NCBI RefSeq assembly: GCF_900115785.1
Contig: NZ_FOYS01000003.1
Coordinates: 434,001-498,000, forward strand
Length of the DNA: 64,000 nucleotides
Source of the DNA: Halogeometricum limi
GTDB taxonomy: Archaea > Halobacteriota > Halobacteria > Halobacteriales > Haloferacaceae
Direction: 5' to 3'
Shown here: piece by piece, positions 257 through 27,880 of the stretch
Layout: each line of letters opens with the position of its first letter
How positions within the stretch are numbered: position 1 is the stretch's first letter
Notes under the pieces: model-generated
Seen by the model: the letters and a program-made list of their open reading frames with translations, nothing else
The model's database searches: none
What the model was told of the DNA's origin: nothing
Position numbers and translations under genes: made by a program

Positions 257-579
257 CTAAGCAGACCTCCTGATGTGATGCGCGTCGGACAGTACCATGT
301 TTGTTGTGGATGCCGATCTGGAGTCCGGCAGTTCAGTGGTGAACACTCCACTAAATTTCAGAAGCACTAGCTGAAAGTTCGGGGAGCCAGTTGAGGTATT
401 GCGGATACTGTTTGTCTGATGTGAAGAGATGAGTCCCGGTGAGATGAGTGACAGTGTTGCTTGTGCCAGATGTTGTGACACCGTTCGTGAGGAGAAGGCT
501 GGTGACTGTGACGTCTGGGTTGTCAACCGGGGGCGTGACTTACGACCCCCGCTCGATGACTCGCAGCAGGCGTAGTCGG
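257..579. other. Intergenic stretch between the GHKL protein and the partial exonuclease
   Basis: This 323-base stretch follows the stop codon of the giant GHKL protein and precedes the partial exonuclease, both leftward. I find no convincing gene: the open frames here are short, run on from neighbouring coding sequence, or have unlike composition. An AAATTTAGT element near 347-356 could be a weak leftward TATA box. AGTGG/CCACT around 333-350 forms a short inverted repeat. Confidence 0.5.
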
Positions 580-5598: not shown

Positions 5599-5616
5599 AC
5601 ACACTGGTGTCGAGTC

Positions 5617-5630
5617 AGAGATATATACCC
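5617..5630 (-). promoter_or_regulatory. TATA box of the GHKL-DUF3883 gene
   Basis: The leftward strand reads GGGTATATATCTCT here, centred about 26 bases before the ATG at 5598. This predicts a leaderless transcript and decides the start codon, because the longer reading frame would begin upstream of the promoter. Confidence 0.7.
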
Positions 5631-5699
5631 TAGGGGAAGTGATGCTGGGAGAATGGCACAAGATCAGAACTCCCCGAATTCAATAATCCTGAGATCTGC

Positions 5700-7376: not shown

Positions 7377-7395
7377 AGAGACGATTACTAGGGGC

Positions 7396-7410
7396 TAGTA
7401 CAAATATTCA
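7396..7410 (-). promoter_or_regulatory. TATA box for the AAA ATPase gene
   Basis: Leftward strand TGAATATTTGTAC, about 29 bases upstream of the ATG at 7376, fits a leaderless haloarchaeal promoter. It lies back to back with the Argonaute promoter in a 258-base divergent region (7377-7634). Confidence 0.55.
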
Positions 7411-7592
7411 CGCATCTCGATGTCCCTATTCAGAGTATACTGACGTCTTGCTGTCTATCGGGCTATGATTGGCAAATTTCCGACGCTCGGTGTCGTTCGG
7501 TACTTCCTCATGAATGCCTCATTTGTGGGGAAGAGATGCTTTCTTAGAGTGAGTTGAATCTAAATCTGATTTATCGTGTTTGAAATTCTCCT

Positions 7593-7610
7593 AGTGAAAA
7601 CTTATTTATT
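7593..7610 (+). promoter_or_regulatory. Promoter of the Argonaute operon
   Basis: The sequence GTGAAAACTTATTTATT contains a BRE-like GAAAA followed by a TTATTTA TATA element. It ends about 25 bases before the ATG at 7635. The spacing implies a leaderless mRNA starting at or next to the Argonaute start codon. It is the only clear promoter found for the five-gene rightward operon. Confidence 0.7.
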
Positions 7611-7634
7611 CTGAGCGTACGTTGGTCGGCGTAG

Positions 7635-10313: not shown

Positions 10314-10376
10314 CCATGCGCCAGTACTGCCACACGCAACCACTCACGCACTCATCGCCACACCGGTAACCCTCGC

Positions 10377-12497
10377 ATGACCAAGACGGAATTCCAAGCA
10401 ACAGTTGAGTTCGATGATGGCAGCACCGCTGAACTGGAGATGGCTGCCGACAAATCATGGGACAGTTTCCTGAACTACTTCGGTGACGCCCAGCACGTCT
10501 ACTGCGTCACGTACAGTCAGTCCCCGGCGTTCATCTACAAGATGTTTCAGAACCGGGACCTCGCAGTGGACTCATTGGAAGTCATCGTCGGGGACAACCA
10601 GCACGACGACTACCGGCGGTCGCTGAAGAACACGAACAACGCGAAGAAAATCGCCGCGCAACTGGAGTCACTGCGACGAGACGGTGATCTCCGCATCCAC
10701 ACCGTCGATTCTGCGCGCGTCCTCCTCCACACGAAGCTCTACATCGTCGAGAATCAGGACGGGTCTCGCACACTCATCTGTGGGTCGGCGAACCTCTCGA
10801 AGCAGGCATGGCAGGGGAGCAAACAAACCAACGTCAACATGGCCTGGCGTACCGACGGGGACACGCCCGTCGACGAGTGGTTCGAACGGCTCTACGCGTT
10901 CCACAAGGACTACGCGACGCCGTTCATGGAGGACCTCACGGAGGAGATCGAAGACGCCGAAACGGCAGAAGAAGAGGCGAAGATCTACGACATCTGGCTG
11001 GGCGGGGACGAGTTCAGTGACGACCCGGTCGCCGAGCTGAACGCCCGACTCGACGAAGCGGTTGACGACGACCAAGTCAACACGTACAACGTCGTCACCG
11101 ATGCCGAAGAAGCAGAAAAGGCGGTGTTCGCCGCCGAAGATACGGACACCGACCCAACAGAGATTAGTCCGGACAAACGTGTACGCCTCTCCCCGCAGGG
11201 TCTCGAAGACGCCATCTCGAATCTGGACGATACGCTGTCCGCCAATAACATCCGTATCAACGACGGTGAAATCGTAGCGACACCGGCCGGTATCGCACGG
11301 TACAAAGAGACCTTCACCGGATACCCCGACCTCAACGTCGACAAGGACGAGAACACAGTCGGGCTGCGAGTTGATGACTCCGTCCTCGAATTAACGGCTC
11401 CCCTCCCGGATGATCCGCAGGAAGTCGCTGACGCGCTCGACCTGATCGAGCAGTACGTCGAAACGGTCGGTGAGTTCGGTGAAACGCGAACGACGAAGGA
11501 AACGCGGGCACACTTCTACGAGGGAGTTATCTACTTCTGCTGGGCTCCGTTCGCAAACTACTGCGCCCATCACTACGCGGAATACGAATCCGCAGAGCTC
11601 GACAAGGATCTACCGTTCCTGTTCCTTCACGGCGACAACGACAGCGGGAAAGGCATGTTCCTCCGATTCGGGGCGCGACTCATCTCGAACGGGTACGTAC
11701 AGGAAGTCACGACCGGCGACGACTTCATCAAAAACAACATCGAGCGTGCTCGTGCGTCGGACACTGTTTTCCCGTACATCGTTGACGACGTGGCGAAGTC
11801 GAAGATTGACCGGGACATCATCAAATCGTACTGGGAGGGGAAGTGGGACGGCTCCATCCAGATGCCGACGTTCATCTTCTCCTCGAACGACTCGACGAAA
11901 CCGAAATCCGAACTTCGGACCCGCATGAAAACGTTGGATTTCAACGTCAACTTCTCCGAACTGGAGAAGGACGAACGGGAAGCCGCCGCGCAAATCGCTG
12001 GCCAGGCGGACAGCTGTAATCTATTCCCGTGGTTCGCCCACCTGTTCTTGCAGCGGGATATCTCGCTGCCAGACCAGTCGGATCGGCTCGCGGATGCTCG
12101 GGACGTGTTCGCGGAGCTGTACGCGTATGCCGAGAAGGAACCGCCGGAGTACGTGCCGCTGAAGAAACCCGCCGAACAGGAACACGACCCAGGACGACGG
12201 AAGTGGATCAGCGCGCTGTCCGACGGGCTGTGTGAACTCGATTTCAAGGACGACGGGCGTGTTATCGCTGATTTCTCAGCGAACCTGGACCAGCAGCAGT
12301 GTTGGCAGTTCCAGAAGGCTACGCCAGCCCATATTCGGGCGAGTATTTACGGGCCGGCAGTCCAGTTTGAAAGCGCAAACAGATTCAAGAATTGGATAGA
12401 TGAGCCCAGTATCATCGAAGATGCACGACGCGACACCGAAACGGCGGCTGACAACACCGGTGTTCTGTCTCGGGTCACGCGGCTCGTCCGAGGGTAA
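10377..12497 (+). CDS. PLD-family phosphodiesterase fused to a P-loop NTPase
   Basis: The 706-residue protein has two enzymatic halves. The N-terminal half (about 30-185) is a phospholipase-D-type domain: HTKLYIVE (118-125) followed by GSANLS (136-141). This is the HxKx4D/GSxN signature with Glu in place of the Asp. Only one HKD copy is present, so dimerisation would be needed for an active site. The C-terminal half has a Walker A GDNDSGKG (419-426), an acidic Walker B FPYIVDD (465-471), a sensor-like FIFSSND (499-505) and an arginine-rich strand after it. This resembles SF3/AAA-like helicase cores. The linker is acidic. The gene lies 63 bases after the Argonaute and 5 bases before the AddB-like gene. 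A nuclease or effector coupled to an NTPase motor is likely; substrate unknown. Confidence 0.75.
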   Translation: MTKTEFQATVEFDDGSTAELEMAADKSWDSFLNYFGDAQHVYCVTYSQSPAFIYKMFQNRDLAVDSLEVIVGDNQHDDYRRSLKNTNNAKKIAAQLESLRRDGDLRIHTVDSARVLLHTKLYIVENQDGSRTLICGSANLSKQAWQGSKQTNVNMAWRTDGDTPVDEWFERLYAFHKDYATPFMEDLTEEIEDAETAEEEAKIYDIWLGGDEFSDDPVAELNARLDEAVDDDQVNTYNVVTDAEEAEKAVFAAEDTDTDPTEISPDKRVRLSPQGLEDAISNLDDTLSANNIRINDGEIVATPAGIARYKETFTGYPDLNVDKDENTVGLRVDDSVLELTAPLPDDPQEVADALDLIEQYVETVGEFGETRTTKETRAHFYEGVIYFCWAPFANYCAHHYAEYESAELDKDLPFLFLHGDNDSGKGMFLRFGARLISNGYVQEVTTGDDFIKNNIERARASDTVFPYIVDDVAKSKIDRDIIKSYWEGKWDGSIQMPTFIFSSNDSTKPKSELRTRMKTLDFNVNFSELEKDEREAAAQIAGQADSCNLFPWFAHLFLQRDISLPDQSDRLADARDVFAELYAYAEKEPPEYVPLKKPAEQEHDPGRRKWISALSDGLCELDFKDDGRVIADFSANLDQQQCWQFQKATPAHIRASIYGPAVQFESANRFKNWIDEPSIIEDARRDTETAADNTGVLSRVTRLVRG

Positions 12498-12502
12498 CAA
12501 CC

Positions 12503-14563
12503 ATGTCTGACCACTCATCTCACCGGCGATTCGACGGGACGCTAGTCACGGCACCGTTCGGGGGCGAAAACGTCGAGCGGACAGCCCGGGACGAATACCG
12601 AACGCTACTCAACGAGTACGATTCTGAGGATGTGCTCGTCATCACGGGTGCGCCGACGAGTACGGACACGTTCCGGGAGACGTTAGGTGAGGAACTTCCG
12701 GGTGCGGCGACACCGTACGTGACGTCGCTCGTCGTGCACGCGACCGATGTCCTCAATCAGACCGATGACCGAGTCATTCTCTCCGACGCGCTACGCCGAG
12801 AACTCCTCCACCGATTCCTCGCCGACTACGAGTGGGACACAGAGTACCTCCAGCGAGCGTCTGAACAACCTTCGTTCATTGAAGATGTGGACGCCGTGAT
12901 GGGAACGATCTCCTGGCAGACGGTCATGCCCGAGGAAACCCCGGAACTCCGTGATATAACGGCTGCGCTCGACGCGTTCCACGAGTGGCTGGCCGAGTAC
13001 GGCCACATGGAACGCGGCCAACTCATCTCGGAAGCACTCGATGTCCTCACCGGGGATGCCCGTGACGACGTCGTCGATTTCGAGGCGGTGCTCGCAGTCG
13101 AGTTTGAGGAGTTCTTTCCGCTCGACCGCGCGTATCTCGACGCGCTCGCAGGGGACTGTGAGCTCGTCTGTATCGCCGAAAAGAATGCGAGTGTGCGCCG
13201 CACGTGGGTCGAAACAGGGCCCGTTACGGACTATGTCACGTTCAGCGAGGCTCGCCGCGGGGCGTCAGAGACGCCGTCAACGCGACCAGCTGCCACAGCA
13301 ACGTATTTTGCCAAAGAAACGGTCCCGGCAGACCCAGAAACGGGATCGGTGTCCGTCCTCGCTGCAGACTCCAGTGACGAACAACTCGCCGAGATTGCAA
13401 ACGAGATTGAGGAACTCGTCGCGCAGCCGGATTGGAACTACGACGACATCGCTGTCGCCACGAAACAAAGTGGGAGTTCGGTTACGGACGCAATTGAGGC
13501 GTTCGAGCGTGCCGGCATCCCGACGGAATCGACAACAGTCACTGGTTTCGGAGACGATCCTGCGATCCGGGAACTCCTCGCTGCCGTGCGGTATCTCGCT
13601 GCCGACGACAAGGACGAGCTGCCTGAACACGGCCCGGATCTTGATACGGAGCGCTTAGACCGCGTCCGGGAGATGGACAGCCTCGAAGATGGGATTCGCT
13701 GGTGGGCGACAGACGCAGGGTTGAAAGAGCGGATTGCGGAGCGCGCGACCCCGCTGAACGCACGGGCACAGTTCGGAAATGTCAAGCGGGCGTTCCGGAT
13801 GACCGCGTTTCTCGAAGAGACTGAGTTTGTGGATGCGACGTGGAGGTCCTTCGAGGAGATGCTCGAACGCGCCCACGAGTACGCACCGCAACAAAACCAG
13901 ACCAGTGCAACGAACCTTGACGGCGGTGTTCGCGTGGACCACCTGCAGGCGATCAAGAACGAGTCGTTCCGCGCGGTGTTTCTCGTGAATCTCGTCGATA
14001 GTGAGTACCCTGGTGACCCGTTCCTGACTCGATTGTTCCCGACCGAGCGGGTCGCATCGATGCGGGACTACCCTGGTGTCACGGACCTCGACGAGCCGGA
14101 CGTGGATGCGACGTTCCCGACGCTGTCCACGGCGTCGAGTCGGCCGTTCGCTCGGTATCACACGGAGCACGCCCGGCGACGCCTGGCGATTGGGGCTGGC
14201 GCTGCTGACGAGCACCTGTACTGTTGTCTCTACGAGTACGAGGACACCGCACTGGAAGAGCGTGCGCAGGCATCGCGGTTCCTCACAGACGCGTACGACA
14301 CCCTGCCGTGGGTCACTGAATCCGACGATCCACACATCACGAGCGAGCAAGCGGCGGAGGATTTCCTGTTATCGCGGGTTGACGACGCGCTCGCCGCGGT
14401 GCGCCGCGCGAACAGTCAGGACGTGACGGTGTCGCTCGACGAGGTAGAAGCGGAACTCGGCGAGATTCAGGACCTGCTCGACAAGAGCGGTACGCGTGGC
14501 GAGGAGCTCCGGAAGGCGTTGCGTGCACGTGTCGAGTTTGCTACCGGGGAGGTGCGACGATGA
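12503..14563 (+). CDS. AddB-like inactivated helicase subunit, without nuclease domain
   Basis: The 686-residue protein has the layout of the helicase half of AddB/RexB. It has an N-terminal RecA-like fold with no recognisable Walker A lysine (APFGGENVERT stands at the expected place). A UvrD-like second RecA domain follows from about residue 280 (VSVLAADSSDEQ, YDDIAVATKQ). The late motif AIKNESFRAVFLVNLVDSEYPG is typical of UvrD/AddB motif V-VI regions. It stops where AddB would continue into its Fe-S nuclease domain, and the next gene, overlapping by 4 bases (ATGA), encodes just such a nuclease. I infer that the two together rebuild a full AddB, acting as scaffold and end-recognition subunit for the AddA-like helicase. 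This assignment rests on fold pattern, not strong motif matches. Confidence 0.7.
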   Translation: MSDHSSHRRFDGTLVTAPFGGENVERTARDEYRTLLNEYDSEDVLVITGAPTSTDTFRETLGEELPGAATPYVTSLVVHATDVLNQTDDRVILSDALRRELLHRFLADYEWDTEYLQRASEQPSFIEDVDAVMGTISWQTVMPEETPELRDITAALDAFHEWLAEYGHMERGQLISEALDVLTGDARDDVVDFEAVLAVEFEEFFPLDRAYLDALAGDCELVCIAEKNASVRRTWVETGPVTDYVTFSEARRGASETPSTRPAATATYFAKETVPADPETGSVSVLAADSSDEQLAEIANEIEELVAQPDWNYDDIAVATKQSGSSVTDAIEAFERAGIPTESTTVTGFGDDPAIRELLAAVRYLAADDKDELPEHGPDLDTERLDRVREMDSLEDGIRWWATDAGLKERIAERATPLNARAQFGNVKRAFRMTAFLEETEFVDATWRSFEEMLERAHEYAPQQNQTSATNLDGGVRVDHLQAIKNESFRAVFLVNLVDSEYPGDPFLTRLFPTERVASMRDYPGVTDLDEPDVDATFPTLSTASSRPFARYHTEHARRRLAIGAGAADEHLYCCLYEYEDTALEERAQASRFLTDAYDTLPWVTESDDPHITSEQAAEDFLLSRVDDALAAVRRANSQDVTVSLDEVEAELGEIQDLLDKSGTRGEELRKALRARVEFATGEVRR

Positions 14564-15465
14564 GCCAAGAGTCGCTCTCACCGTCGCGGCTGGCGAACTA
14601 CGCGACGTGCCCGCGGCTGTACGATTATCGGTACGTACAGGACGTGAACGCGCCGGATCGCACCGAACTCTACCTCAACCAAGGGACGATCTACCACGAG
14701 ACTATTGAGGACGTGTGTGAGGCGACCAACCGTGGCGACGCTCCGGAGGTGATTCACGAGCGGGCGATGCGGATCTTCGATGCGAAATGGGGCGAACACA
14801 GTACTCCGGACGACTACGAATCTGCTGCGCATCAAGAGTACCAGCGTGCTGAGAATCGGGCTGCCATCGAGTCGTTCTTCGCTCCCGATGGCGGCGTCGG
14901 TATCGACCACGCCCGCCGCTCAATCGCCACCGAGTGCTGGGTAGAGTGCGAGGTAGACGGGCGGGGGCTTCACGGGAAAGCAGACAACGTCATCCGAACG
15001 GACGACGGCCTCCACATCTTCGACTACAAACGGAAAACACACGGAATGCTCTCCGACGGGACAGCCGAATACCTTGGCGACCACCTCGACGGGGAGGCGC
15101 ACGAGCCGAAGCGCGTGCGGAACGCGTTCCAGACAGCGGCGTACATCGAGGGCGTGAAGAACGAACCGTTCTACGAGGACGGAATGGAGGTCCGGTTCAG
15201 TTTCTACGGCCTCCTCAATAGCACGTCGTTCGAGAGCACGGCTGACGGCTACGACGTATCTGCACGTGGATGGGGGCGGGAAACCACTGAGATCTACGAA
15301 GACCACTATGACACGATATGGGCGCTCATTCGCGCCGCACACGACGGCATTACGGGCGAGAACTACGGACCGGAACCGTTTGAGCTCATCAGCGAGAAAG
15401 CGTGCCCGGACTGTGACTATCGAGAGATGTGTGCTGACCGGCTGTCGACGGAGGTGCGACGATGA
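14560..15465 (+). CDS. Cas4/RecB-like PD-(D/E)XK nuclease with Fe-S cluster cysteines
   Basis: The 301-residue protein shows every landmark of the Cas4/AddB nuclease class. C17 (TCPRLYDY) and the trio C282, C285, C291 (CPDCDYREMC) can bind a 4Fe-4S cluster. H46 (IYHETIE), D142 (GKADN), D155 and K157 (FDYKRK) and Q191 (FQTAAY) form the RecB-family active site. It overlaps the AddB-like gene by 4 bases and the AddA-like gene by 4 bases, so translation is probably coupled and the three products likely form one complex. There is no cas1, cas2 or CRISPR array in the window, so CRISPR adaptation is not its role here. It is expected to trim or cleave DNA strands, possibly generating guides for the Argonaute. 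Confidence 0.88.
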   Translation: MSQESLSPSRLANYATCPRLYDYRYVQDVNAPDRTELYLNQGTIYHETIEDVCEATNRGDAPEVIHERAMRIFDAKWGEHSTPDDYESAAHQEYQRAENRAAIESFFAPDGGVGIDHARRSIATECWVECEVDGRGLHGKADNVIRTDDGLHIFDYKRKTHGMLSDGTAEYLGDHLDGEAHEPKRVRNAFQTAAYIEGVKNEPFYEDGMEVRFSFYGLLNSTSFESTADGYDVSARGWGRETTEIYEDHYDTIWALIRAAHDGITGENYGPEPFELISEKACPDCDYREMCADRLSTEVRR

Positions 15466-18400
15466 GCGGTGACAGTGACGCCTACCCGTCTTGGTTCCCG
15501 GTTCCGGAGGAAGATGTGTCACCGGAGCCCCAGCAAGAGACGATCATCGACGCCGACGCGTACCCGATGCGGGTGCTCGCTGGAGCAGGGACGGGGAAGA
15601 CGTTCACGATGGTCCGGAAGGTGGAGCACCTCATCGACGAGGAGAACGTGTCCCCGGACCGGATTCTTGCGTTGACGTTCACGAACAACGCTGCGGACTC
15701 GATGCGTGAGAAACTCAACGCAAAGCTCGGCGCGGCCGGGTACGACATCGACGCGTACACGTACCACTCGATCTGTAACGAGATTCTCACCGACTACGCG
15801 TACGACGCCGGAATCGATCCGGACTTCGAGGTTGCCACGGACGCCGAAAAGTACGCCATCGTACTGGACGTCCTGGACGACATCAAGTACCGGTCGGTGA
15901 AACCCAACGTGTACGGGGGCGACGGGTACGCGTCAGGAGCCGCATCGAAGTTGCTCAACTTCATCGGGTCGATGAAGCGCAGCGGCATCACGCCCGACGA
16001 CATCGACGCCTTCCTCGGCTCTGCGGACCGCGTCTACGAACTCGCTGACCTTTCGGAGCGTGTCGAGGCGATTGCAAGCGATCATCTGGGCGGCCGGTCC
16101 GTGTCGAGCGTACTGAACTCGCTTCCAGACGTGCGTGCCGACCTCGTTGAGGAACGTGACGCGCTGGGGACGGACGGAATGGAGGCCAGTGCACGCGACT
16201 TCCTCGACCGCTTGGTGGATCTTTGCGATGCGCTGGAAGCGGCGTTCGAAGCCCACGAGGCAGGCGAGCGAGAGCTGCCGGACAACGCGTACAAGCTCCC
16301 GAAGTACCTACTCGGCGGGTACGCGAGCGGTGCGCCGAAGGGCATCCCGGATAGTCTCGACCTCGAACTCACGGATCATCTCGACTCGTTCCTCTCGGAC
16401 TGTCTCACGGCCCGTGACCTGACGGCCGGATACGCCGCGTACGAGCGTGAACTCGACGGGCGGAATCTCATCGACTTCGACGGCCTCGTTGTGGAGACAG
16501 CCGCGCTGATGGAGTCGCCGGTCGGTGAAGAAATCGCTGCCCGATGGGACTACGTGTTCTGTGACGAGTTTCAGGACACCGACCGCCTGCAGTTCGACCT
16601 CGTCACGTCACTCGTCACTGACGACAACCTGTTCGTCGTGGGTGACGACGATCAGGCGATCTACGAGTGGCGCGGCGCGCACGTCGCCAACATCACTGAT
16701 GAACTCGACCGCGCATTCGCGGCACTCACTGACGAACCCTTAGAGGAGAATTTCCGCTCCCGGCAGCCGATCCTCGACCTGGCGAACGAGGCGATCCAGA
16801 AACTCGACCACCGTGAACGTCACAAGACACTGAAGCGCGTCGACGAACCCGAGTACGACGGGGATACTATCGCTACCGTCGAACTGCCGGACGAGGACGA
16901 TGCAGACGGTGCTGCCCAGCTTCGCACCGTCGTCCAGAATCTGCTGAGCGGTGCCGCTGAGAGTCTCGATGAGGCGTACGACCCGGGCGACATCGCGTTA
17001 CTCGTCCGGAAGAACGACCACGCGACACCCGTCATCGAGGAATTCGAAGACGCCGGGATTCCGTACCAGGTTGCTGGCGATCTGGCCACGGAATCCGTCG
17101 GCGTCGGTACCGTAACAGCCTACCTGAAGGCACTCGCGCGGCCGGACGACGAGGTCAGTTGGAATCGTGTCCTCCTGATGCGGTACCGTTTGTGCGACAA
17201 AGACCTCCGCACGCTCAACGCGGGCGATGACTCGCTCGTGGACACGCTCCGCGAGACACCGCTCGACGAGTTCGAGGAGCCTGACCGCGTCGCGGAGGCC
17301 CGTAAGCACGTCACGGAACTCCTCGACATCCGGGATTCAGCGTCGCTCAGTCACCTGTACCGCGAGCTCACAGACGTCACGAATATCGAGTGGTATCTCA
17401 GCGAGCAGGAACGCCGGGACCTCGCCCAGCTGGAGGACATCATCGAACAGTACGGAGATAGCACTGTTCAACCACCGCTCACCCCGGAGTTCATCGACTC
17501 GCTCGAACACTACGACTCCCTGTTCGACGAGAGCGGTTCTTCCCCGACGAGTCAGCCGGATGTTGCCGATGACGCGGTCAACGTGATGACCGTCCACAAG
17601 AGTAAGGGCCTGGACTTCCCGGTCGTCCTCATCCCGCAAGTTACGGCCGACGAGTGGTCACCGAGCTCACGAACCTACGATGCGCTCGAAACCAGCCTCT
17701 CGGACGGCGCAGAAGCGGCGTTCGCCGAGGACTTCGTCGAGCGTGACGCCCGTGAAACACGTCGTGTGTTCCACGTCGGGATCACGCGCGCCGAAGACGT
17801 CCTCGTCCTCCAAGGCGGCACCGAGGGCGACGACGATACTGCGGACGTACACCCGGTTTCAGAGGCGGTTGACGAGATACTGCCATCTCGAATCCCGTGG
17901 CAGCCAGAGCGAGGACAACTCCCGATCTGGACCGACGTGCTGGAATGCCTCCCGGATAACGCCGTAGACTGGACAGACACGCTTGCCAGCGGGACCGTCG
18001 GGAACATTGGTGGGACCGTCAATCACGACGGCGAAGAACTCACCGTCGAGGCAGCGCGCGACCGCGTGTTAGCCCTCGCAACAGCCAGCCTCAGCGGCGA
18101 TCTCTCTCCGAGAACCGAGCGGGGGACACTCCAAGTTGCGTCGCTGACCGGCCCGTCAACGCCGTCACCGTCGCTCTCGCACAGCTACACTTCCCTGGCA
18201 GCCTACGAGGAATGCCCGCGGAGTCACTACCTGGACTACGTGGTCAACGCGTTCCCTGACTATCAGGACACCATAGGCACGAGCGGTGCTGGGGACGGTG
18301 TCTCACAACGCGAAATCGGGTTGTTGTTCCACGACACTGCAGAGCAAGCCGCAAAGCAAGATGCGGAACGCCGTGAGCAGTGGTACGGAATCTGCGAGCG

Positions 18401-18923
18401 ACTCGCCAGTCACCGCCGCGCTGCGGACGCGCTCCCAGGGGCGATACAGTGCATCGACCGGTACTTCGAGTTAGATCTTCCCAGCTACGAGATTGTTGAC
18501 GCGGAGCGGGAGTTCGAACTCGACATCGATGGACACGAACTCGTCGGCTACATTGACGCTGTCTACCGGACGCCAGACGATGAGCTGGTCGTCATTGACT
18601 ACAAGGCGACCGAACGCCACCGCGATTTGGAGGACGACAAGCAACTCCCAATCTACTTGTTAGCATGTCGTGACCTGTACGACGACCCAGTGATGCGTGC
18701 TGGGTACGCGTACGTCGGCGAAATCGGGCCGAAGGTTGAAACGCGAACGTTCAGTGGCAGTGATCTGCAAGCGGTCAGGGACGACGTGACGACGTCGATG
18801 ACTCGCATTGCCGAGTTCTCGTTCGGACGGTACACTGCTGGTGAGCACTGTCAGTGGTGCCAACACAACCAACTAGCCTGCGCGCCGGACTCGTTCACTG
18901 TCGGTCCAGGGTTCGAGGAGTGA
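15462..18923 (+). CDS. AddA-like UvrD/SF1A helicase with C-terminal Fe-S PD-(D/E)XK nuclease
   Basis: The 1,153-residue protein has a full set of SF1A helicase motifs: a Q motif near QQETI (24-28), Walker A AGAGTGKT (40-47), DEFQD (368-372), GDDDQAIYEWRGA (394-406) and MTVHKSKGLDFP further on, with an arginine-containing VGITRAEDV segment. The last about 220 residues are a RecB-type nuclease: CPRSHYLDY, a LLFHDTAE histidine, a GYIDAVY aspartate, VIDYKA, and a final CQWCQHNQLAC cysteine group for an Fe-S cluster. This is the composition of AddA, although the family also includes UvrD-Cas4 fusions. As last gene of the Argonaute operon, joined by a 4-base overlap, it probably supplies unwinding and strand degradation at DNA ends. 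Confidence 0.88.
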   Translation: MSGDSDAYPSWFPVPEEDVSPEPQQETIIDADAYPMRVLAGAGTGKTFTMVRKVEHLIDEENVSPDRILALTFTNNAADSMREKLNAKLGAAGYDIDAYTYHSICNEILTDYAYDAGIDPDFEVATDAEKYAIVLDVLDDIKYRSVKPNVYGGDGYASGAASKLLNFIGSMKRSGITPDDIDAFLGSADRVYELADLSERVEAIASDHLGGRSVSSVLNSLPDVRADLVEERDALGTDGMEASARDFLDRLVDLCDALEAAFEAHEAGERELPDNAYKLPKYLLGGYASGAPKGIPDSLDLELTDHLDSFLSDCLTARDLTAGYAAYERELDGRNLIDFDGLVVETAALMESPVGEEIAARWDYVFCDEFQDTDRLQFDLVTSLVTDDNLFVVGDDDQAIYEWRGAHVANITDELDRAFAALTDEPLEENFRSRQPILDLANEAIQKLDHRERHKTLKRVDEPEYDGDTIATVELPDEDDADGAAQLRTVVQNLLSGAAESLDEAYDPGDIALLVRKNDHATPVIEEFEDAGIPYQVAGDLATESVGVGTVTAYLKALARPDDEVSWNRVLLMRYRLCDKDLRTLNAGDDSLVDTLRETPLDEFEEPDRVAEARKHVTELLDIRDSASLSHLYRELTDVTNIEWYLSEQERRDLAQLEDIIEQYGDSTVQPPLTPEFIDSLEHYDSLFDESGSSPTSQPDVADDAVNVMTVHKSKGLDFPVVLIPQVTADEWSPSSRTYDALETSLSDGAEAAFAEDFVERDARETRRVFHVGITRAEDVLVLQGGTEGDDDTADVHPVSEAVDEILPSRIPWQPERGQLPIWTDVLECLPDNAVDWTDTLASGTVGNIGGTVNHDGEELTVEAARDRVLALATASLSGDLSPRTERGTLQVASLTGPSTPSPSLSHSYTSLAAYEECPRSHYLDYVVNAFPDYQDTIGTSGAGDGVSQREIGLLFHDTAEQAAKQDAERREQWYGICERLASHRRAADALPGAIQCIDRYFELDLPSYEIVDAEREFELDIDGHELVGYIDAVYRTPDDELVVIDYKATERHRDLEDDKQLPIYLLACRDLYDDPVMRAGYAYVGEIGPKVETRTFSGSDLQAVRDDVTTSMTRIAEFSFGRYTAGEHCQWCQHNQLACAPDSFTVGPGFEE

Positions 18924-19230
18924 CCAGTCGAAACCGGGGAATTGGACGGACGGTAGTCCCGGCTCTCCGGCCTTGTTTTTCCCGAATCTTTCACCGGGCT
19001 TGATTCGGTACTCTGTTCACAGTCCAAGCAACTCTCGGTTGGGTCTGGTTGAGTCGTTTTGAGTTCGTGTCGTCTGCCAAGTTCCGCGCATCCTCGGCGG
19101 TGTGGTGGCATTACAAAGATTTCATCGAGGAAAGGAGGGATTCCCGGTGGTGCGCGCAGTGTGTTGATCGATTCACTGTCTTTCCGTGGGTGAAGTTACA
19201 GATAAATTGACATTATTGGCGATATGGTCG

Positions 19231-19261
19231 TGCTGTCAGTCGGGCAGGCATGCTGTCAGTC
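19231..19261. repeat. Tandem 11-base direct repeat, possible operator
   Basis: TGCTGTCAGTC appears twice with a 20-base spacing, about two helical turns, so a dimeric regulator could bind both on the same DNA face. It sits upstream of the 19321 TATA box. Only two copies are present. Confidence 0.4.
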
Positions 19262-19319
19262 CGGATTTTGCCTTTTAACGGGCTGTGACGTTAGAAATGA
19301 CGGTATCTCAGGGCTAACC

Positions 19320-19328
19320 CTTTAATAC
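19320..19328 (+). promoter_or_regulatory. TATA box for the 104-aa gene
   Basis: CTTTAATAC ends about 25 bases upstream of the ATG at 19353, consistent with leaderless transcription. Confidence 0.55.
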
Positions 19329-19352
19329 GACCAGATAATTTCCCGGTTTGCG

Positions 19353-19667
19353 ATGAAACGCGTCATCGACCGGAAACTGTACGACACGGACCGAGCCGAA
19401 GAAATTGCCCAGCATACCCCAAACAGGGATCGAGGTGACTTCTACTACCTCATCGAAACGCTATACAAGACCTCAAGCGGGGAGTATTTCCTCCACGGTG
19501 AGGGCGGTGCGGCGACCAAATACGCCAAGGCGTGTAGCGGGGGCGGCACGACTGGCGGTGCGGAGATCGAAGCTCTCGACGAGGAAACAGCGCTGGACTG
19601 GTGCGAAGAACACAGCATCGACGGTGAGATCGTCGTCGATGAATTCGATCATCTGATCGAAACGTAG
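19353..19667 (+). CDS. Small conserved protein of mobile elements, function unknown
   Basis: The 104-residue protein begins MKRVIDRKLYDTDRAEEIA and contains GEYFLHGEGGAATKYA and a Gly/Thr-rich turn, ending in acidic EIVVDEFDHLIE. I recognise this pattern (K-x-YDTDTA... FLYGEGGAxTKYA) from short proteins seen on plasmids, phages and integrative elements of bacteria and archaea, but no activity is known to me. It has its own leaderless promoter and precedes the DNA methylase by 74 bases. A hairpin of CCACTC/GAGTGG lies between them near 19690-19707. A regulatory or antirestriction role would be speculation. Confidence 0.65.
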   Translation: MKRVIDRKLYDTDRAEEIAQHTPNRDRGDFYYLIETLYKTSSGEYFLHGEGGAATKYAKACSGGGTTGGAEIEALDEETALDWCEEHSIDGEIVVDEFDHLIET

Positions 19668-19741
19668 CTCCAGCGGCTGCCTCGGAAATCCACTCCTCTC
19701 TGAGTGGCGGCGCACTGTGGATCGTTCCCGCAGCGAGGTGT

Positions 19742-22189
19742 ATGATAGACCCAGAAGTCAACAGACTCCACCGTCGAGGAGCGAGTTCCAACGCTCGTGC
19801 CTATACGTCGACACCCAGCCCGTCCCTGGTTACGAGCGGCGGGACAGATCACTCACCGGTCACCCCAGTGGGAGTAGAAGCGCGTCACAACGAACAGATC
19901 AACGCCGTCATCCGGCAACTCACGACTGACGGCCACGACATTCCGTCGCCGTTCTCGAAGAGGGAACTGTACCGTACTGCTGCCAGCGAAGGGTTTGAAG
20001 TGTGGAAGCCAGCGGTGAAGGACCGGTTCACCGACCGTGTGCTTGACCGACTCAACTACAAGTGGGATTCAGTCTCCCAAACATTCACTCCCGTCGTCAC
20101 GCAGGAACTCACCGAGGATATTCGAAATGCGGCGGGGACAATCACTCCTGCGTTCGACACTGGCCTGTCGGCATCACTTCGCAAGCAAGTTGACAAGTGG
20201 TGTGATTTGCATGCTTTCGATTCGTTCGCAACTGGTGCGGCACAGCGAACTGTTGCGCGCCACGGCGTCCTAAGTGTACTCTTGAAGGCGGTGCTCTACG
20301 AATGGTATCAGCGTCGCGGCGTCGTTGACCCCCTCTCAGATGCAGAACCACAAGCGTTCCAAAACGCGCATGAACGGACAAATGACGTAGCGTTCGATAC
20401 GTTTGTTCTCGATCACATTGCAGAGCTAGCTGATAGGGACGAACTGGCATCCGTGGTTGCTCACCGGGACCGGTTGCTCTACTCCACCCGACCAGCTGAA
20501 GACATTGGGCGAATCTACGCAGCACTCACGCCAAACGAGTACCGACAGTCACTCGGCCAGTTCCGGACCCCACCCGAAATCGCAGAGACGATGCATTCCT
20601 GGGCTGGCCGGGATGGGGGTCATCTCCTTGATCCGGGGATGGGGGCAGGTGTCCTGTCGAGCCCGTACCATCCACGTTGGGAGCTGAACACTGGTCCAGC
20701 GCACGTCGATGGGGTTGATCGCAGTTACCTCTCACGGCTCATGGGTGCTACCGCGTTAACCCTCTCCGGGCAGTCAAATACACCACACGCACGTGACTTC
20801 CTCAATCTTGAGCCGGACGACCTGCAACGTGACATCGGGGGGATCGTCTGCAATCCGCCTTACACGAGTGGCGATGCGCTGCCCAAAGAATACAAAGACC
20901 AGATGAACGCGAGGCTGGAGGAAACGACTGGGATTGACATCAGCGCTCGATCAGCGCTCTATACGTACTTCCTGTACCACTCTCGGTCGTTTTTGTCTTC
21001 AGGTGACCATGCAGCATACCTCACACCGGATAGCTTCCTCACGACTGAGTATGGAACACAGCTCAAGCAGTTCCTGCTGGATGAGTTCGCACTCAACGCG
21101 CTCGTGCAATTCGATCCTGAAGGAGAATCGGTCTTTGAGGACGCTCAGGTCACTGCCCTCATCAGCTTCGTAGAAGCGACCACTGACGATCCGGACGGAG
21201 TCACGCGCTTCATTCGCGTGGACGAGTCTATTGATTCGAGTGCGCTTCGTGAAGCAGTTCAACATGGTGACGAGGGCGAGACAGACTGGGGATTCATCAA
21301 TCACGTCCAGCAACAAGCGCTCTCACCGGACCGGAATTGGGCTTCGCTGTTCAATCCATGTGACGTCGATACATCCGGACTGACGCCGCTTGATGAACTC
21401 GTTACCATCCACCGCGGGAAGTCAACCGGGGACGTAGACCTCTTCTGCCTGACCCAGGATGATGTTGATGAGTACGGCATCCCCGAGCAAGACCTCGCCC
21501 GGCTCATCCGCCAGCCAAAACTCGTCAACGGATATGACTTCCGCGACGAGGACTGGGAGAGCTTACGAACTGCTGGAGAGGAAGTGTGGCTCTTAGACCC
21601 CGATGAACTACCTGCTGTCCGAGAGTCACAGTGGGAATTCAATAAGCAATTCCACTACGACGCAGATTCGTTGCCACGGAACAGCGCCGGTGAGGTCACA
21701 AGCACCGTGTCATATCTGCGGGACGGCGTACGCAAATGCGGAACAGCGGGGGCGAACGTACTCAAAACCCGTCCCTACTGGTATCGCCCCCGTCGACAAG
21801 CCTCGCCTCGGGTGTTGGTCCAAGACGCAGGCAGGGACGAATTCACCTTCGTGCTCAACGAGACGACAGCGAGGAACATCCACAACTTCCGCGGATTCTA
21901 CGACGTGCCCCTCGACGAAACTGAACTGAAAGCGTTGCTCGCATACTTGAATAGTCCCATTGGACAGCAAGTGATTCAAACACAGACCCAGACGCAGCAG
22001 GGCGGCTACGAGAAGCTCAGCATCAGCGCGCTCAAAACACTCCCCGTTATCGACCCGAGATCAATCGATGGGTCACTCGTAGAGACTCTCGCAGGACTGT
22101 TTGACGAACTACGTGAAACTGCCAGAGAGAGCGGAGACCGTGAGGTGGTCTTGAATCGTCTCAACAGTGTGGTTCGGCAGGTGCTGTGA
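19742..22189 (+). CDS. N6-adenine DNA methyltransferase with C-terminal target-recognition region
   Basis: The 815-residue protein has the class gamma N6-adenine methylase motifs: motif X GQFRTPPEIA (272-281), the SAM-binding HLLDPGMGAG (294-303), and the catalytic NPPY (371-374). The last about 300 residues resemble a TaqI/Eco57I-type specificity domain (for example GYDFRDEDWE). The N-terminal 250 residues are helical and show no PD-(D/E)XK nuclease motif. It is therefore a modification enzyme without its own cutter, and no separate restriction nuclease lies next to it. It may protect the island or the host from the neighbouring defence nucleases. The start is uncertain: the first 45 residues are low in complexity and a later GTG could be used. 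Confidence 0.85.
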   Translation: MIDPEVNRLHRRGASSNARAYTSTPSPSLVTSGGTDHSPVTPVGVEARHNEQINAVIRQLTTDGHDIPSPFSKRELYRTAASEGFEVWKPAVKDRFTDRVLDRLNYKWDSVSQTFTPVVTQELTEDIRNAAGTITPAFDTGLSASLRKQVDKWCDLHAFDSFATGAAQRTVARHGVLSVLLKAVLYEWYQRRGVVDPLSDAEPQAFQNAHERTNDVAFDTFVLDHIAELADRDELASVVAHRDRLLYSTRPAEDIGRIYAALTPNEYRQSLGQFRTPPEIAETMHSWAGRDGGHLLDPGMGAGVLSSPYHPRWELNTGPAHVDGVDRSYLSRLMGATALTLSGQSNTPHARDFLNLEPDDLQRDIGGIVCNPPYTSGDALPKEYKDQMNARLEETTGIDISARSALYTYFLYHSRSFLSSGDHAAYLTPDSFLTTEYGTQLKQFLLDEFALNALVQFDPEGESVFEDAQVTALISFVEATTDDPDGVTRFIRVDESIDSSALREAVQHGDEGETDWGFINHVQQQALSPDRNWASLFNPCDVDTSGLTPLDELVTIHRGKSTGDVDLFCLTQDDVDEYGIPEQDLARLIRQPKLVNGYDFRDEDWESLRTAGEEVWLLDPDELPAVRESQWEFNKQFHYDADSLPRNSAGEVTSTVSYLRDGVRKCGTAGANVLKTRPYWYRPRRQASPRVLVQDAGRDEFTFVLNETTARNIHNFRGFYDVPLDETELKALLAYLNSPIGQQVIQTQTQTQQGGYEKLSISALKTLPVIDPRSIDGSLVETLAGLFDELRETARESGDREVVLNRLNSVVRQVL

Positions 22190-22218
22190 ATTCAACTAAT
22201 TACGCTTTGTCGACAAGA

Positions 22219-22228
22219 CCTATATTTG
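22219..22228 (+). promoter_or_regulatory. Promoter of the integrase module
   Basis: CCTATATTTG lies about 35 bases upstream of the ATG at 22262. An upstream candidate start at 22226 would fall inside this TATA box, so the later ATG is preferred. Confidence 0.6.
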
Positions 22229-22261
22229 TTGCCGGGGAAGTCGTTCTTAGAAAATAGTTCC

Positions 22262-22690
22262 ATGCCAAACCACGTTGCGACGTACCCGACCGACGATCAG
22301 TTGGAGCGCTGGAAGCGTGAGGCCAACAAGATGGATATGTCGTTCTCCGAATGGGTACAGGGAATGGTCGAAGCGGGGATGAAGAACTTCACCCCCACGG
22401 TCGAACGTGACGAGGGCGTTCACGAACTCCGGGAACAACGGAACGACCTCCGTAAGGAATTAGAAACCACGCGGACGCGCGTCCGGGAGTTAGAAACCGC
22501 GCTCTACCAAGGAGAACGAGAAGCGATAGCCGAGTACGTCGAAAACAATCCAGGTGTCGAGTACAGCGAGATCGTCCAGCACATCATGAATTCGACTCCC
22601 GAACGGGTGAGTCGTCAATTGGACGTTCTTGACGGTGAACGTGTACAGCGCGATGGGGAGACATTCTATCCGACTGAGGGTGGAGAGTAG
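22262..22690 (+). CDS. Helical/coiled-coil DNA-binding-type protein, first gene of the integrase module
   Basis: From ATG 22262 the protein has 142 residues. It starts MPNHVATYPTDDQLERWKREA, with the short beta strand and helix typical of ribbon-helix-helix-like regulators (MSFSEWVQGMVEAGMK). A charged coiled coil follows (about residues 55-85, ELREQRNDLRKELE). The C-terminal 60 residues look like a winged helix (EYSEIVQHIM, ERVSRQLDVLDGERV). Similar small proteins stand directly before haloarchaeal tyrosine integrases. Its stop codon shares a base with the next gene's GTG. I infer a regulator or directionality factor for recombination. Confidence 0.7.
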   Translation: MPNHVATYPTDDQLERWKREANKMDMSFSEWVQGMVEAGMKNFTPTVERDEGVHELREQRNDLRKELETTRTRVRELETALYQGEREAIAEYVENNPGVEYSEIVQHIMNSTPERVSRQLDVLDGERVQRDGETFYPTEGGE

Positions 22691-23145
22691 TGGTTTCAAC
22701 AAAGATTGAGGAGCGGTTAGGAGTGTACAAGTCGATTTCAGAGGTGCCGACTGAGTACCGTCTGGAGTCGTTTGCCGCCGGCATCGAAGGCCAAGACGTC
22801 TGGTCGGAGTGGAACGAGATCCATTCTGATTCCAAGTGGAAGCGTGCGGAGGCACGTCGCGTCAAGGACCGGTGGAACGACCATCTCGAAAGTACGGGGA
22901 GGCACTACGCATTGGCAACGCCGGAAGACGTGGAGTCGTTCGTCGCTGGACTCCTCGACGAGGTTCAGCTTGAACGGGCGTACAAGCCGTACTGGTTGTT
23001 CCTTAAGCGGTTCTATCACTGGCTTGTTTGGCACACCGAGTACCCGCACAGATATAATCCAGTACTGATGGCTTCGGCCAACTATCCGGCGTGCGGTGAA
23101 GTCTGGGACTACGTTATGTCATTCGACAGAGATTCATTCAAATGA
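22690..23145 (+). CDS. Integrase core-binding-like protein without catalytic domain
   Basis: The 151-residue product starts at a GTG that overlaps the preceding TAG by one base, and it overlaps the integrase start by 4 bases. It is rich in Trp and aromatic residues and contains FYHWLVWHTEYPHRYNP. That resembles the helical SAM-like core-binding domain at the N terminus of haloarchaeal integrases. No tyrosine recombinase catalytic residues are present. A role as accessory DNA-binding partner of the integrase is inferred from resemblance and tight coupling. It might alternatively be a remnant of a second integrase. Confidence 0.65.
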   Translation: MVSTKIEERLGVYKSISEVPTEYRLESFAAGIEGQDVWSEWNEIHSDSKWKRAEARRVKDRWNDHLESTGRHYALATPEDVESFVAGLLDEVQLERAYKPYWLFLKRFYHWLVWHTEYPHRYNPVLMASANYPACGEVWDYVMSFDRDSFK

Positions 23146-24242
23146 CAAACGAAAAACGAAGAGAGATCGCTGACGCCTTCGGGAAAGACTTAGATCCTCT
23201 CTCGAAGTTAGAGCAGACCTTCGTCGAACACGAACTCAAACCATTCGACGCGGCACTGGACGATCTCATCGATTACGAAACAACGCCACAAGGAACCATC
23301 AACAACTATACGACGCCAATCAGACAGTGGAAGACCTTTATGGAACGCCATAATCGGCACCCAGCATGCCCGGCTGAACGCCACGTCGTCGAGTTCATCA
23401 CCTACCTCCGGAACGAACGCGAAAATTCGGACAACACGATCAAACCGAAGATTCGGCATTTGAATAGCGTGTTCAAATACTGGCAGTCCGACTCGGCGTT
23501 CCCACACGACGACGCGTTCAACCCGTTCGAGAAGGAGTTGCAGAAAGGGTACCTGTCACCCGAAGAGGCGAAAGAACCGCCGCGAGTCTCAGTACCTGAC
23601 CTCCGCGAGAAACTGCAAGACGTGAACCACTGGCGAGACCGGACCGTCATCGTGACGCAGCTGAAGCTCGGTCTCCGCGCAAGCGAACTGTGTAACATCA
23701 AGCTGTCAGAAATTAATATCCGGCATCAAGAACTGCGGGACCACTACGATGAGATGGGGACACACAGGCGAGTACGCGACCGACCAAACTCGGTCTACAT
23801 CCCCCCAGATCGAGAGCTGAACAAATCGAGTGTCCCCCGAGTGCTCCCGTTAGACGACGAGCTACGACTCCTCCTCATCGAATATCTACTAGTGAGGCCC
23901 GACAACGGGAAACCATGGGTGTTCCTCTCCCCGACCCGTCACAACCAGATGAACAACTCGAAGGTCAACGAAATCTGGAAAAATCACTTCCACCCGGAAT
24001 ACCAATTTGACGAGGACGACCCATACCGAAGTATCACCTCCCACTTTGGCCGGCACCGGTTCTCGACCTTCTTCCGGAACGAACGGGGTTGGCAGGAAGA
24101 AAAAGTCCAGTACATGACGGGGCACAAAGGCAGCTACGACAGCGACGAACACGACTCGCTCTCCACGTACGTCCACACGTACTACGAAGACATCAAAGAT
24201 CGATACCTCGACGAGGTGTATAAGTTCGGACTCGGTGTCTAA
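23142..24242 (+). CDS. Tyrosine recombinase (integrase)
   Basis: The 366-residue protein has an N-terminal core-binding domain (to about 140) and a catalytic domain. R179 (LGLRASEL), H301-x-x-R304 (SHFGRHRF), H328 (TGHKG) and Y343 (STYVHTYYED) fit the R-H-x-x-R-H-Y set, with Y347/Y348 as less likely nucleophiles. It should cut and rejoin DNA at the island's attachment sites. Its stop codon overlaps, tail to tail by 3 bases, that of the complete ATP-grasp gene, so the recombinase lies at the extreme right end of the island, as integrases usually do. Confidence 0.92.
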   Translation: MTNEKRREIADAFGKDLDPLSKLEQTFVEHELKPFDAALDDLIDYETTPQGTINNYTTPIRQWKTFMERHNRHPACPAERHVVEFITYLRNERENSDNTIKPKIRHLNSVFKYWQSDSAFPHDDAFNPFEKELQKGYLSPEEAKEPPRVSVPDLREKLQDVNHWRDRTVIVTQLKLGLRASELCNIKLSEINIRHQELRDHYDEMGTHRRVRDRPNSVYIPPDRELNKSSVPRVLPLDDELRLLLIEYLLVRPDNGKPWVFLSPTRHNQMNNSKVNEIWKNHFHPEYQFDEDDPYRSITSHFGRHRFSTFFRNERGWQEEKVQYMTGHKGSYDSDEHDSLSTYVHTYYEDIKDRYLDEVYKFGLGV

Positions 24243-25558
24243 CTCTCAGACGGCCCGAGGTATCCCCACGCCAGAAGGCGGTCGCCGTCCCCCTCGACCC
24301 ATCGCTCACCGATATCGTCACGGTAGTACATATTCGGCATCACGATGTCATCGATCCGGTCGTACGCCTGCTCACGCGCCGCCTGCATCGTCTCTCCTTT
24401 GCCCGTCACGACGATTGGCATCCCGTTATCCCCCGCAGCGCGCCACTGCCCGTCGATCTTCTTCGCGTCTTCAAGATGGATTCCCTCCCGACTCTCAGTC
24501 TGAAAGACCACGGCCGCATTCCGGGAGTTCTCATCGTACGTCTTCTCGTCATCGAACGGGAAGGGTGGCAGGACGACGCGGACGCCGATCTGGTACCCAT
24601 TGTGGACTTCCAATTCTGGGTCATTTCCATGCGCGAGGTCGTAGAAGAACTCCCCCGTCGACGACTCAATAGACTCTTCCTGGAGTGCGATTGTCGGGTA
24701 CCCGAACCGCGGGGTGAACTCCAACGGATAAATGCCGTTCTCGTTCACGATGCAGTTGATGTCGATGCTCCCAACGTAGCCTTCGTTAGCCAGCCAACCT
24801 TCGAGCTTGCCGAAGGTCTCTTGGAACAATTTGTTCTGAGAAGCCCAGAACATCGAGGTTCCCATCTCTCCGGTGGATGGTCCGATGTTTCCTGGGAATA
24901 ATTTCTTATGCTCAAAATTGAAATTGACCTGATCAATGAACTCCTCACCGTTGAAGAACCCACAAATAGCGATCTCGACGCCCTCGACTTTCCGCTGTAA
25001 CTGGAACCCTTTCATCCGATGCCCCCACGCCTTCTTGTAGGCCTTCAAGACGTCAACAACGTCACTACCATCGTCTTCGTTGCCGACATAGAGGAGCCGT
25101 TTGACGTTCTGGACTTCTCCGAGTGGTTTGATGACGTAGGGGGCTGGGTTCTCCTGGACATGCTGGATACCCGCATCGAAGTCGTGGAAGATGTGGTGCT
25201 CGATGGTATTGACACCGTGATCTTCGAGGATCTCCATCGCGTAGCCACGGTCTTCTTCGAGGTGGTCAGTGTTCGGCGTTCCTCCAACGACGGCCTTCCC
25301 TTGCTCACGGAGTTCGTTCGCAAGTTGACCTGTGCCGACATCCGAGCCAACCCAGATGTCGTCGAAAATGATGACATCAGCCCACTCAACATCTGCCCGC
25401 CAGTCATCCGTTTTCGGCACGAAACCATCGCCGATCTCCTTGTCGCTCTCGGCTTCGATGTGGTACTTCACGTCATGGCCCTCGCGGTGAACCTGCCACG
25501 CGAGGTCGGTGATCAGTGCGGCGTCGGCGGAAATGAACAGGAAGTGCTTGGATTCCAT
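24239..25558 (-). CDS. ATP-grasp ligase (PurD-like), complete copy carried by the island
   Basis: The 439-residue protein has an N-terminal preATP-grasp fold (HFLFISADAALITDLAW) and ATP-grasp features such as NPAPYVIKPLGEVQNVKR, DGSDVV, and late ELEFTPRFGYPT-like metal/phosphate residues (YPLEFTPRFGYP). It resembles phosphoribosylamine-glycine ligase-type enzymes, but it is not the usual PurD, which begins with a Gly-rich REHA motif. The real substrate is unknown. It is roughly half identical to the truncated gene at 25568-26263 and less GC-biased. An AT-rich TATTATATAATT near 25610-25623 could be its promoter. It looks like an incoming functional replacement for the host gene broken by integration. 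Confidence 0.8.
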   Translation of the reverse strand: MESKHFLFISADAALITDLAWQVHREGHDVKYHIEAESDKEIGDGFVPKTDDWRADVEWADVIIFDDIWVGSDVGTGQLANELREQGKAVVGGTPNTDHLEEDRGYAMEILEDHGVNTIEHHIFHDFDAGIQHVQENPAPYVIKPLGEVQNVKRLLYVGNEDDGSDVVDVLKAYKKAWGHRMKGFQLQRKVEGVEIAICGFFNGEEFIDQVNFNFEHKKLFPGNIGPSTGEMGTSMFWASQNKLFQETFGKLEGWLANEGYVGSIDINCIVNENGIYPLEFTPRFGYPTIALQEESIESSTGEFFYDLAHGNDPELEVHNGYQIGVRVVLPPFPFDDEKTYDENSRNAAVVFQTESREGIHLEDAKKIDGQWRAAGDNGMPIVVTGKGETMQAAREQAYDRIDDIVMPNMYYRDDIGERWVEGDGDRLLAWGYLGPSES

Positions 25559-25567
25559 TGTTGAGGT

Positions 25568-26263
25568 TTAAGCAGCGGTAATTTCGGTTTGTGTAGCGAC
25601 ACTCTGCGGCGAATTATATAATAGATCCCGGAAATGGTGTTCGAAGTTGACGCAGACCGGCGTGACGAACCGTCTCCCGTCGAAGAACGCACCCACCGCG
25701 ACTTCGACGCCGTCGGCACGACGCTGGAGTTCGAACCGCTCTATCTTCTCGCCCCACGAGCGTTCGTACGCCTGCAGGACGCGAATCACGTCCGACCCGT
25801 CGTCCTCCTCGCCGACGAACACCAGTCGCTTCACGTTCTGGACCGTCCCGCTCGGTTTCACGACGTACGGCGCGGGGTTCTCGCGAACGAATTCGACGGC
25901 GTCGCCGAAGTCGGTGAACTCGCGGTGCGGCAGCGTCTTCACCCCCACCTCGCGCAGTTGCTCCTGTCCGAAACTCCGGTCGTCCTCCAACCGGTCTGTG
26001 TACGCCGTCCCCCCGACGACGTGGTGGCCCTCCTCTCGCAACCGCTCTGCGGCCTCTCCGTGACCGAACACGTCGTCGAAGACGACGGTGTCGGCCCAGT
26101 CGACGTGCGCCTCCCAGTCGGCGACTTTCTCGACGAAGCCGTCGGCGATGGACGCCTCGTCGTCGTTCTCGATGAAGTACCGGACGTCGTGACCCGCTCC
26201 CCGAACCCGCCACGCGATATCGCCGATGAGTCCGTCGATGGAGACGAACAAGAAGTTGGACAT
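25568..26263 (-). pseudogene. Host ATP-grasp gene truncated by island insertion
   Basis: From ATG 26263 the frame gives 231 residues starting MSNFLFVSIDGLIGDIAW. They match the complete copy at 24239-25558 over about 210 residues (NPAPYVVKPSGTVQNVKR is shared) and then lose similarity after VCVNFEH near base 25637. The last about 22 residues (FRDLLYNSPQ onward) come from junction DNA. The ATP-grasp catalytic half is missing. Codon use is strongly GC-rich, like the core genome. Its promoter, with TATTTTTG on the leftward strand near 26287-26295, is intact. The missing 3' half should be found beyond the left edge of the window if this was a simple insertion. Confidence 0.8.
25609..25623 (-). 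promoter_or_regulatory. Candidate TATA element at the island junction
   Basis: The leftward strand reads ATCTATTATATAATTC about 55-65 bases before the ATG at 25558, giving a short leader. It lies only about 15 bases from the point where host homology stops, so it arrived with the island. Confidence 0.5.
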
Positions 26264-27760: not shown

Positions 27761-27880
27761 GTCTCGATAGAGACGAGAATCCGGCATAGGTTTTGTGCCG
27801 CTGACACGTTCTCGTTTCCGCTCTCGCCGAACCGGTCGCGGAAGCGAGGATTTTTGTCGTCTGCCGACGCGTCGTGCGAT

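Follow-up and report, generated by a model that had tools for sequence, protein, structure and literature searches.

The PurD-like ATP-grasp gene of the haloarchaeon Halogeometricum limi is interrupted by a genomic island that has a second version of the same gene at its end, raising the question as to whether the island brings a whole substitute for the gene that it breaks. The window in which this was seen is a stretch of 64,000 nucleotides (G000:C3:434001-498000, G000 being the H. limi genome), and positions without a contig prefix refer to it. From both junctions and a genome search we find that the whole island occupies G000:C3:385449-459636, exactly 74,188 bp, such that the window holds its right third with defence cargo (1..25636).

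The host gene is broken after codon 209, and with both junctions read the break falls exactly at base 25637; the original prediction of a cut after about 210 codons near this base is therefore right to the base. The 5′ remnant (25637..26263, minus strand) contributes 209 host codons to a frame that continues for 22 island codons to a stop at 25568, 9 nt upstream of the initiation codon of the substitute. The missing 3′ part, which was predicted to lie at the left boundary, is present there at G000:C3:384741-385448, 74 kb from the 5′ remnant and on the same strand; a search of the organism's own genome matches C3:384749-385453 (minus strand) to residues 214-435 with 62% identity, and the remnant is open through to the normal C-terminus. 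Both host halves are open and in frame, and when rejoined they form one reading frame. The protein tree contains no valid row for the host gene, and its kinship is taken from a separate comparison with intact genes, of which those of G044 and G025 are 76-77% identical to the 5′ remnant and 76-80% identical to the split gene, placing the latter in a divergent clade.

The host attachment site consists of the F-E-H-K codons (TTC GAR CAC AAG). The 7-bp core at the right junction is CGAACAC (25637..25643, minus strand) and its left-junction partner is CGAGCAC (C3:385442-385448); these differ at one base (consensus CGARCAC), and the three other islands described below (G146, G110 and G194) have CGAGCAC at both junctions. 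Inverted repeats lie just inside the ends, ATTTCCGGGATCTAT at the right (15 bp; 25621..25635, minus strand) and ATTTCCGAGATCTAT at the left (C3:385450-385464), with one mismatch between them; the right repeat is kept in G110 and G146, differs in G194 and is exact in G016, a site from which the island appears to have been lost. Reconstructed from its two ends, the site of the element therefore has an inverted repeat flanking a 7-bp core. An inverted repeat around a short core is the usual layout for a tyrosine recombinase.

A tyrosine recombinase gene (23142..24242, plus strand; 366 aa, PF00589) converges on the substitute gene with a 4-bp overlap between their 3′ ends. It is preceded by a gene for a 151-aa accessory protein (22690..23145, plus strand) with a predicted fold like the N-terminal, core-binding domain of Cre and no catalytic domain; the model has a mean pLDDT of 89 and a best PDB match at E 0.05, which is suggestive of a stand-alone recombinase core-binding domain. 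This protein is also conserved alongside many other haloarchaeal integrases. A further accessory protein of 142-154 aa is encoded immediately upstream (22262..22690, plus strand). The genome has other integrases: a second Phage_integrase gene (394 aa, with a Cys-rich tail) near the left end of the island at G000:C3 about 386,840-388,030 (L084), shared only with G194, and one at G000:C5:91026-92099 that belongs to the same wider family (47%). The cargo in the window includes genes for a long Argonaute (7635-10313), a GajB-like helicase (15462-18923), a TmtA-like 1693-aa protein (580-5661) and a methyltransferase (19742-22189), and BREX genes (BrxC, PglZ, BrxL, PglX-like) lie to the left of the window (L084-L086). 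Much of this defence cargo is common to G194, which is from another family, and by its gene content the island reads as a mobile defence island.

The substitute gene (24239..25558, minus strand) encodes 439 aa and starts 79 nt past the cut. It is 52% identical to the host fragment over 214 aa and has a GC content of 0.56, compared with 0.65 and 0.66 in the host pieces and the flank, respectively, bearing out the prediction of a complete, roughly half-identical and AT-richer copy at the island end. The TATA box attributed to it also has a candidate, a predicted TATA-like element TTATATAA (25614..25621, minus strand) that lies within the island some 59 nt ahead of the start codon and is retained in all four islands and in G016. 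Scans for sigma-70 promoters are unsuited to archaea. In several cases the stop codon of the 5′ remnant sits 9 nt ahead of the substitute ATG, which makes translational coupling possible; the leader, that is the part of the 5′ frame inside the island, is not conserved as a protein. Pairs of element copies have dN/dS values of 0.03-0.09, with dS reaching about 1.6, indicating strong purifying selection, and together with the intact reading frames this supports a functional substitute. In G146 the frame is disrupted by deletions of 2 nt and 1 nt, which could be an assembly error, and the G110 copy runs across a contig edge. We infer that the substitute is expressed and complements the loss of the host gene.

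Relatives lacking the island show what the site looks like when it is empty. In G003, of the same genus, the right-flank genes, one intact ATP-grasp gene and the left-flank genes are contiguous, with flank orthologues 73% (26738-28093), 89% (the 28313-30628 gene) and 88-92% (left-flank genes) identical. G044, Haloferax and Halogranum likewise have a single intact gene between the same flanks, and a tandem gene pair was seen in no genome that lacks the island. The G003 gene is a member of the commoner clade, with 86% identity to the island copy, and the split gene is from the divergent one; the locus itself has therefore undergone exchange between clades.

The same arrangement recurs at three other insertions. 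Among 391 genomes of the class only four have an integrase at the level of 85% identity or more (85-92%), the next best full-length match being 48%, and these four come from two families: G000, G194 (another family), G110 (Halorubrum cibi) and G146. In all four the copy converges on the integrase with the same overlap, and the 5′ and 3′ remnants are split at the same codons with CGARCAC at both junctions; no convergent copy was found beside any of 26 more distant integrases examined (≤48%). Island sizes are 74,188, 76,543, 117,481 and about 136,200 bp, the last spanning a contig edge. The attR end pattern occurs in five of the 391 genomes, namely the four islands and G016. G000 and G194 have a common backbone with BREX genes and the long Argonaute, G110 and G146 have a different common backbone, and every one of the four carries the copy, the integrase, the 151-aa and ∼150-aa proteins, and a few further genes. 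The presence of one module on two different backbones means that the integration module and the substitute form a unit that travels with different cargo.

What the target gene does for its host bears on how much a rescue would matter. The substitute protein scores 93.6 bits against NCBIfam TIGR00877, well below the cut-off of 288, and the true PurD of the same genome lies elsewhere (G000:C4:115726-116955, 385 bits); the ATP-grasp protein is PurD-like, not PurD (phosphoribosylamine-glycine ligase). The gene or a piece of it is present in roughly 113 of 170 genomes of the family, and it is thus widespread but dispensable; since about a third lack it, breaking the gene probably imposes a cost on the cell without killing it. 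The copy may make integration harmless, as was suggested, and the rescue may be of minor importance given how many genomes do without the gene. Homologues with 85-94% identity occur widely across the class, and the gene passes between genera; a scan of conserved neighbours shows most of these homologues to be native genes and not islands. A split gene in G118 proved to result from an insertion sequence with an 8-bp duplication and not from this element. Both gene clades are intact in the single genome G022 (L131 and L141, 54% and 89% identical to the island copy). At L129 (G092:C36:4787-6099) identity to the island copy drops from 94-95% in the first half of the gene to 83-85% in the second, and the gene is possibly a recombinant of an element copy and a host gene. 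A Halarchaeum megaplasmid has a homologue at 88%, and within 15 kb of it no integrase is annotated. No relatives of the copy or integrase were found among viral contigs, and phage records contain only distant ones.

Several sites appear to be fossils remaining after loss of the island. G016 has an exact attR and an intact copy 98% identical to that in the window, with no similar integrase nearby, and its 5′ remnant has a deletion of ∼70 codons. At L056 a shortened, diverged 5′ piece precedes an intact copy; L022 and L053 have just traces of the island end and are weak cases. The retention of the copy and the decay of the host 5′ piece in G016 and L056 are as expected if the copy took over. In G090 (L127, G090:C1:2552068-2554108) an undecayed 5′ remnant, cut at CGGGCAC, lies directly before an intact copy with a recoded site (see below); the end sequence differs and the 3′ remnant is missing, and this is possibly a second element type that uses the same gene.

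The anatomy of the island, the single-gene empty site, the recurrence in four genomes, the purifying selection and the persistence of the copy after island loss are established at the level of sequence comparison, as is the finding that the target and the cargo gene coincide only with this integrase subfamily. They support the original prediction that the island brings a whole substitute. In the mechanism that we propose, a tyrosine-recombinase element integrates site-specifically at the F-E-H-K codons (core CGAGCAC) in the middle of the ATP-grasp gene, halving it, as the sequence shows; the 366-aa integrase would carry out the integration, perhaps with the 151-aa protein, and the full-length homologue, with its own TATA-like box inside one end, would take over the function. 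We consider it very probable that a site-specific element splits the gene and that its own full-length homologue replaces the function.

Other accounts of the arrangement have to be weighed against this one. That the island never broke the gene, having landed between the members of a tandem pair or in a gene that was already split, finds a parallel in G090, where a 5′ remnant stands directly before a full copy with no island between them; but relatives with one intact gene between the same flanks refute it for the window, and with remnants ending exactly at the core in four genomes and forming one frame when joined, we give it next to no credence. Only slightly better placed, and still very improbable, is the idea that the copy serves as beneficial cargo of an ordinary kind, or is a paralogue present by chance, its match to the target being coincidental. 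The abundance of 85-94% native homologues and the mobility of the gene make such an acquisition conceivable, but all four islands hold the copy at the same end and in the same orientation, next to the integrase and within the attachment end, none of 26 related integrases is accompanied by it, and the module stays the same as the backbones differ. A different emphasis, compatible with replacement of function, is that, with the host gene broken, the island holds the only working copy, such that selection acts against imprecise island loss; the copy would then be retained for anchoring the island in the genome and not for making insertion harmless. G016 and L056, in which the island is gone, the copy intact and the 5′ remnant decaying, show that hosts keep the gene; precise excision by the integrase, however, would make the host gene whole again and release the cell from this hold, and a third of the family does without the gene altogether. 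We regard stabilization of this kind as unlikely to be the main reason for the arrangement, though much less so than coincidence.

Replacement of function by the element's own homologue leaves a further problem, because at the position of the attachment site the substitute has the same amino acids as the host protein and should itself be a target. The homologue of the site in the substitute, GTCAATTTCAATTTTGAGCATAAGAAATTATTCCC (24894..24928, minus strand), is recoded: the core CGAGCAC is changed to TGAGCAT with the amino acids unchanged, and across the site TTCGAGCACAAGAAGCTG becomes TTTGAGCATAAGAAATTA through silent changes. It is plausible that this recoding keeps the substitute safe from insertion by its own element. 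The copies in G000, G194 and G110 share an identical 35-nt stretch at the site, the longest in the gene (P 0.003 by codon-order shuffling), and elsewhere they are near saturation at silent sites. The anomaly extends to native genes, in which a scan with no preset place picks out the site as the most codon-anomalous and most variable 10-codon window. Across 85 native genes, a set that excludes element copies and suspected fossils, the site has a mean of 5.3 against a shuffled maximum of 1.2 and a variance of 68 against 17, where codons 206-226 were omitted from the per-gene usage estimate, which slightly favours the site. On a tree from which the region was left out, the recoded core TGARCAT calls for 11 changes or more, and recoded natives occur on many branches; the probable fossils L022, L053 and L056 bear the unrecoded site. 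A simple scar of recent recombination is not borne out for the recoded natives, as the long element tracts expected from it are absent and similarity fades within about 15 codons. Plausibly the recoded patches were either inherited from earlier element copies or represent resistant alleles favoured by selection.

These observations can be drawn together in a disrupt-and-rescue cycle, in which the element breaks the gene, its rescue copy is recoded against a second hit, decay leaves an allele that is proof against insertion, and repeated cycles have seeded recoded alleles across haloarchaeal genera. We put this forward tentatively, its chances falling just short of even. It competes with a reading restricted to the recoded patch, according to which the patch has some other DNA-level role, as an internal regulatory site or as the target of a different element, or has spread by recombination without selection against integration. 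In keeping with that reading, the exact 35-nt conservation among element copies exceeds what mere avoidance of the core would need, and the recoding of natives on so many branches, with its repeated changes, fits it as well; against it, the patch is centred on the 7-bp core and fades so quickly to either side. All six disrupted genes (four islands, G016 and G090) have unrecoded or near cores, which also points away from another role, but this is not significant given that ∼73% of natives are unrecoded. We judge another role or neutral spread to be a credible explanation of the patch that is nonetheless somewhat more apt to be wrong than right. If the disrupt-and-rescue cycle is real, it would be a parallel in nature to engineered cleave-and-rescue designs, in which the rescue genes are recoded. 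The recoded site predicts that rescue genes evolve immunity to their own element and that such alleles then protect hosts, and the cycle offers a route for repeated replacement of a core gene between genera that would explain part of the gene's scrambled tree.

Islands carrying a whole substitute are known in bacteria for recA, bcp and yolD-like targets (PMC4405046, PMC5991714, PMC12486829), and with the archaeal island these scattered reports become a strategy seen across domains. Like the elements RME, Tn6283 and Tn552-II, it has both a target split at its two ends and a complete homologue inside. RME, the recA mobile element of Vibrio cholerae S24, is 32.8 kb long with 9-bp terminal inverted repeats and a phage-type integrase, and its excision restores the target; it resembles the archaeal island in inserting site-specifically in mid-gene, in having at one end a complete but divergent copy of the gene that it enters, and in its terminal inverted repeats, but it is bacterial, targets recA rather than an ATP-grasp gene, and has its integrase at the end opposite recA, whereas here the integrase abuts the copy (PMC4405046). 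The parts of the RME report drawn on here mention no recoding of the site, in contrast to the recoded site of the archaeal copy (PMC4405046). Tn6283 inserts into bcp and carries a Bcp homologue (54.8% identity) thought to compensate for the disruption, and it and other strand-biased circularizing integrative elements (SE) share with the island a target-specific tyrosine recombinase and a short spacer (PMC5991714, PMC10214605). These elements have an IntA-Tfp-IntB-Srap cassette and occur in Gammaproteobacteria, whereas the archaeal module has one catalytic integrase with the 151- and ∼150-aa proteins (PMC5991714, PMC10214605); the SE pair of tyrosine recombinases is not seen in the shared module, which has one Phage_integrase gene, the second near the left end being present only in G000 and G194. 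Tn552-II of Staphylococcus combines a 7-bp att inside a coding gene with a carried target homologue, tgl (target-gene-like), proposed as a rescue, and in both respects is like the archaeal island, but it uses Tn554-like TnpABC proteins and its tgl retains a copy of att that in the archaeal copy is recoded (PMC12486829). Set against a TnpA-TnpB-TnpC module of the Tn554 type, that of the island has one recombinase, the 151-aa Cre-N-domain-like protein and the ∼150-aa protein.

For archaea, the portions of a recombinase review drawn on here place sites mostly in tRNA genes and describe no whole-substitute case (PMC8371274), and thaumarchaeal elements sit in the 3′ ends of genes (PMC6563490); a limited literature search found no earlier archaeal report of a whole-substitute island. 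Elements that restore a tRNA or a gene tail resemble the island in that a tyrosine recombinase inserts them without loss of target function, but as described in those sources they use a short identical att segment, whereas the island restores nothing and the target would be replaced by a whole diverged gene with its own predicted promoter (PMC8371274, PMC6563490). Four complete cases in two families, along with empty sites and decayed remains, reveal the order in which events took place. The archaeal element is set apart from the known systems by its domain of life, its integrase module, its target gene, its recoded site and the breadth of the comparative evidence.
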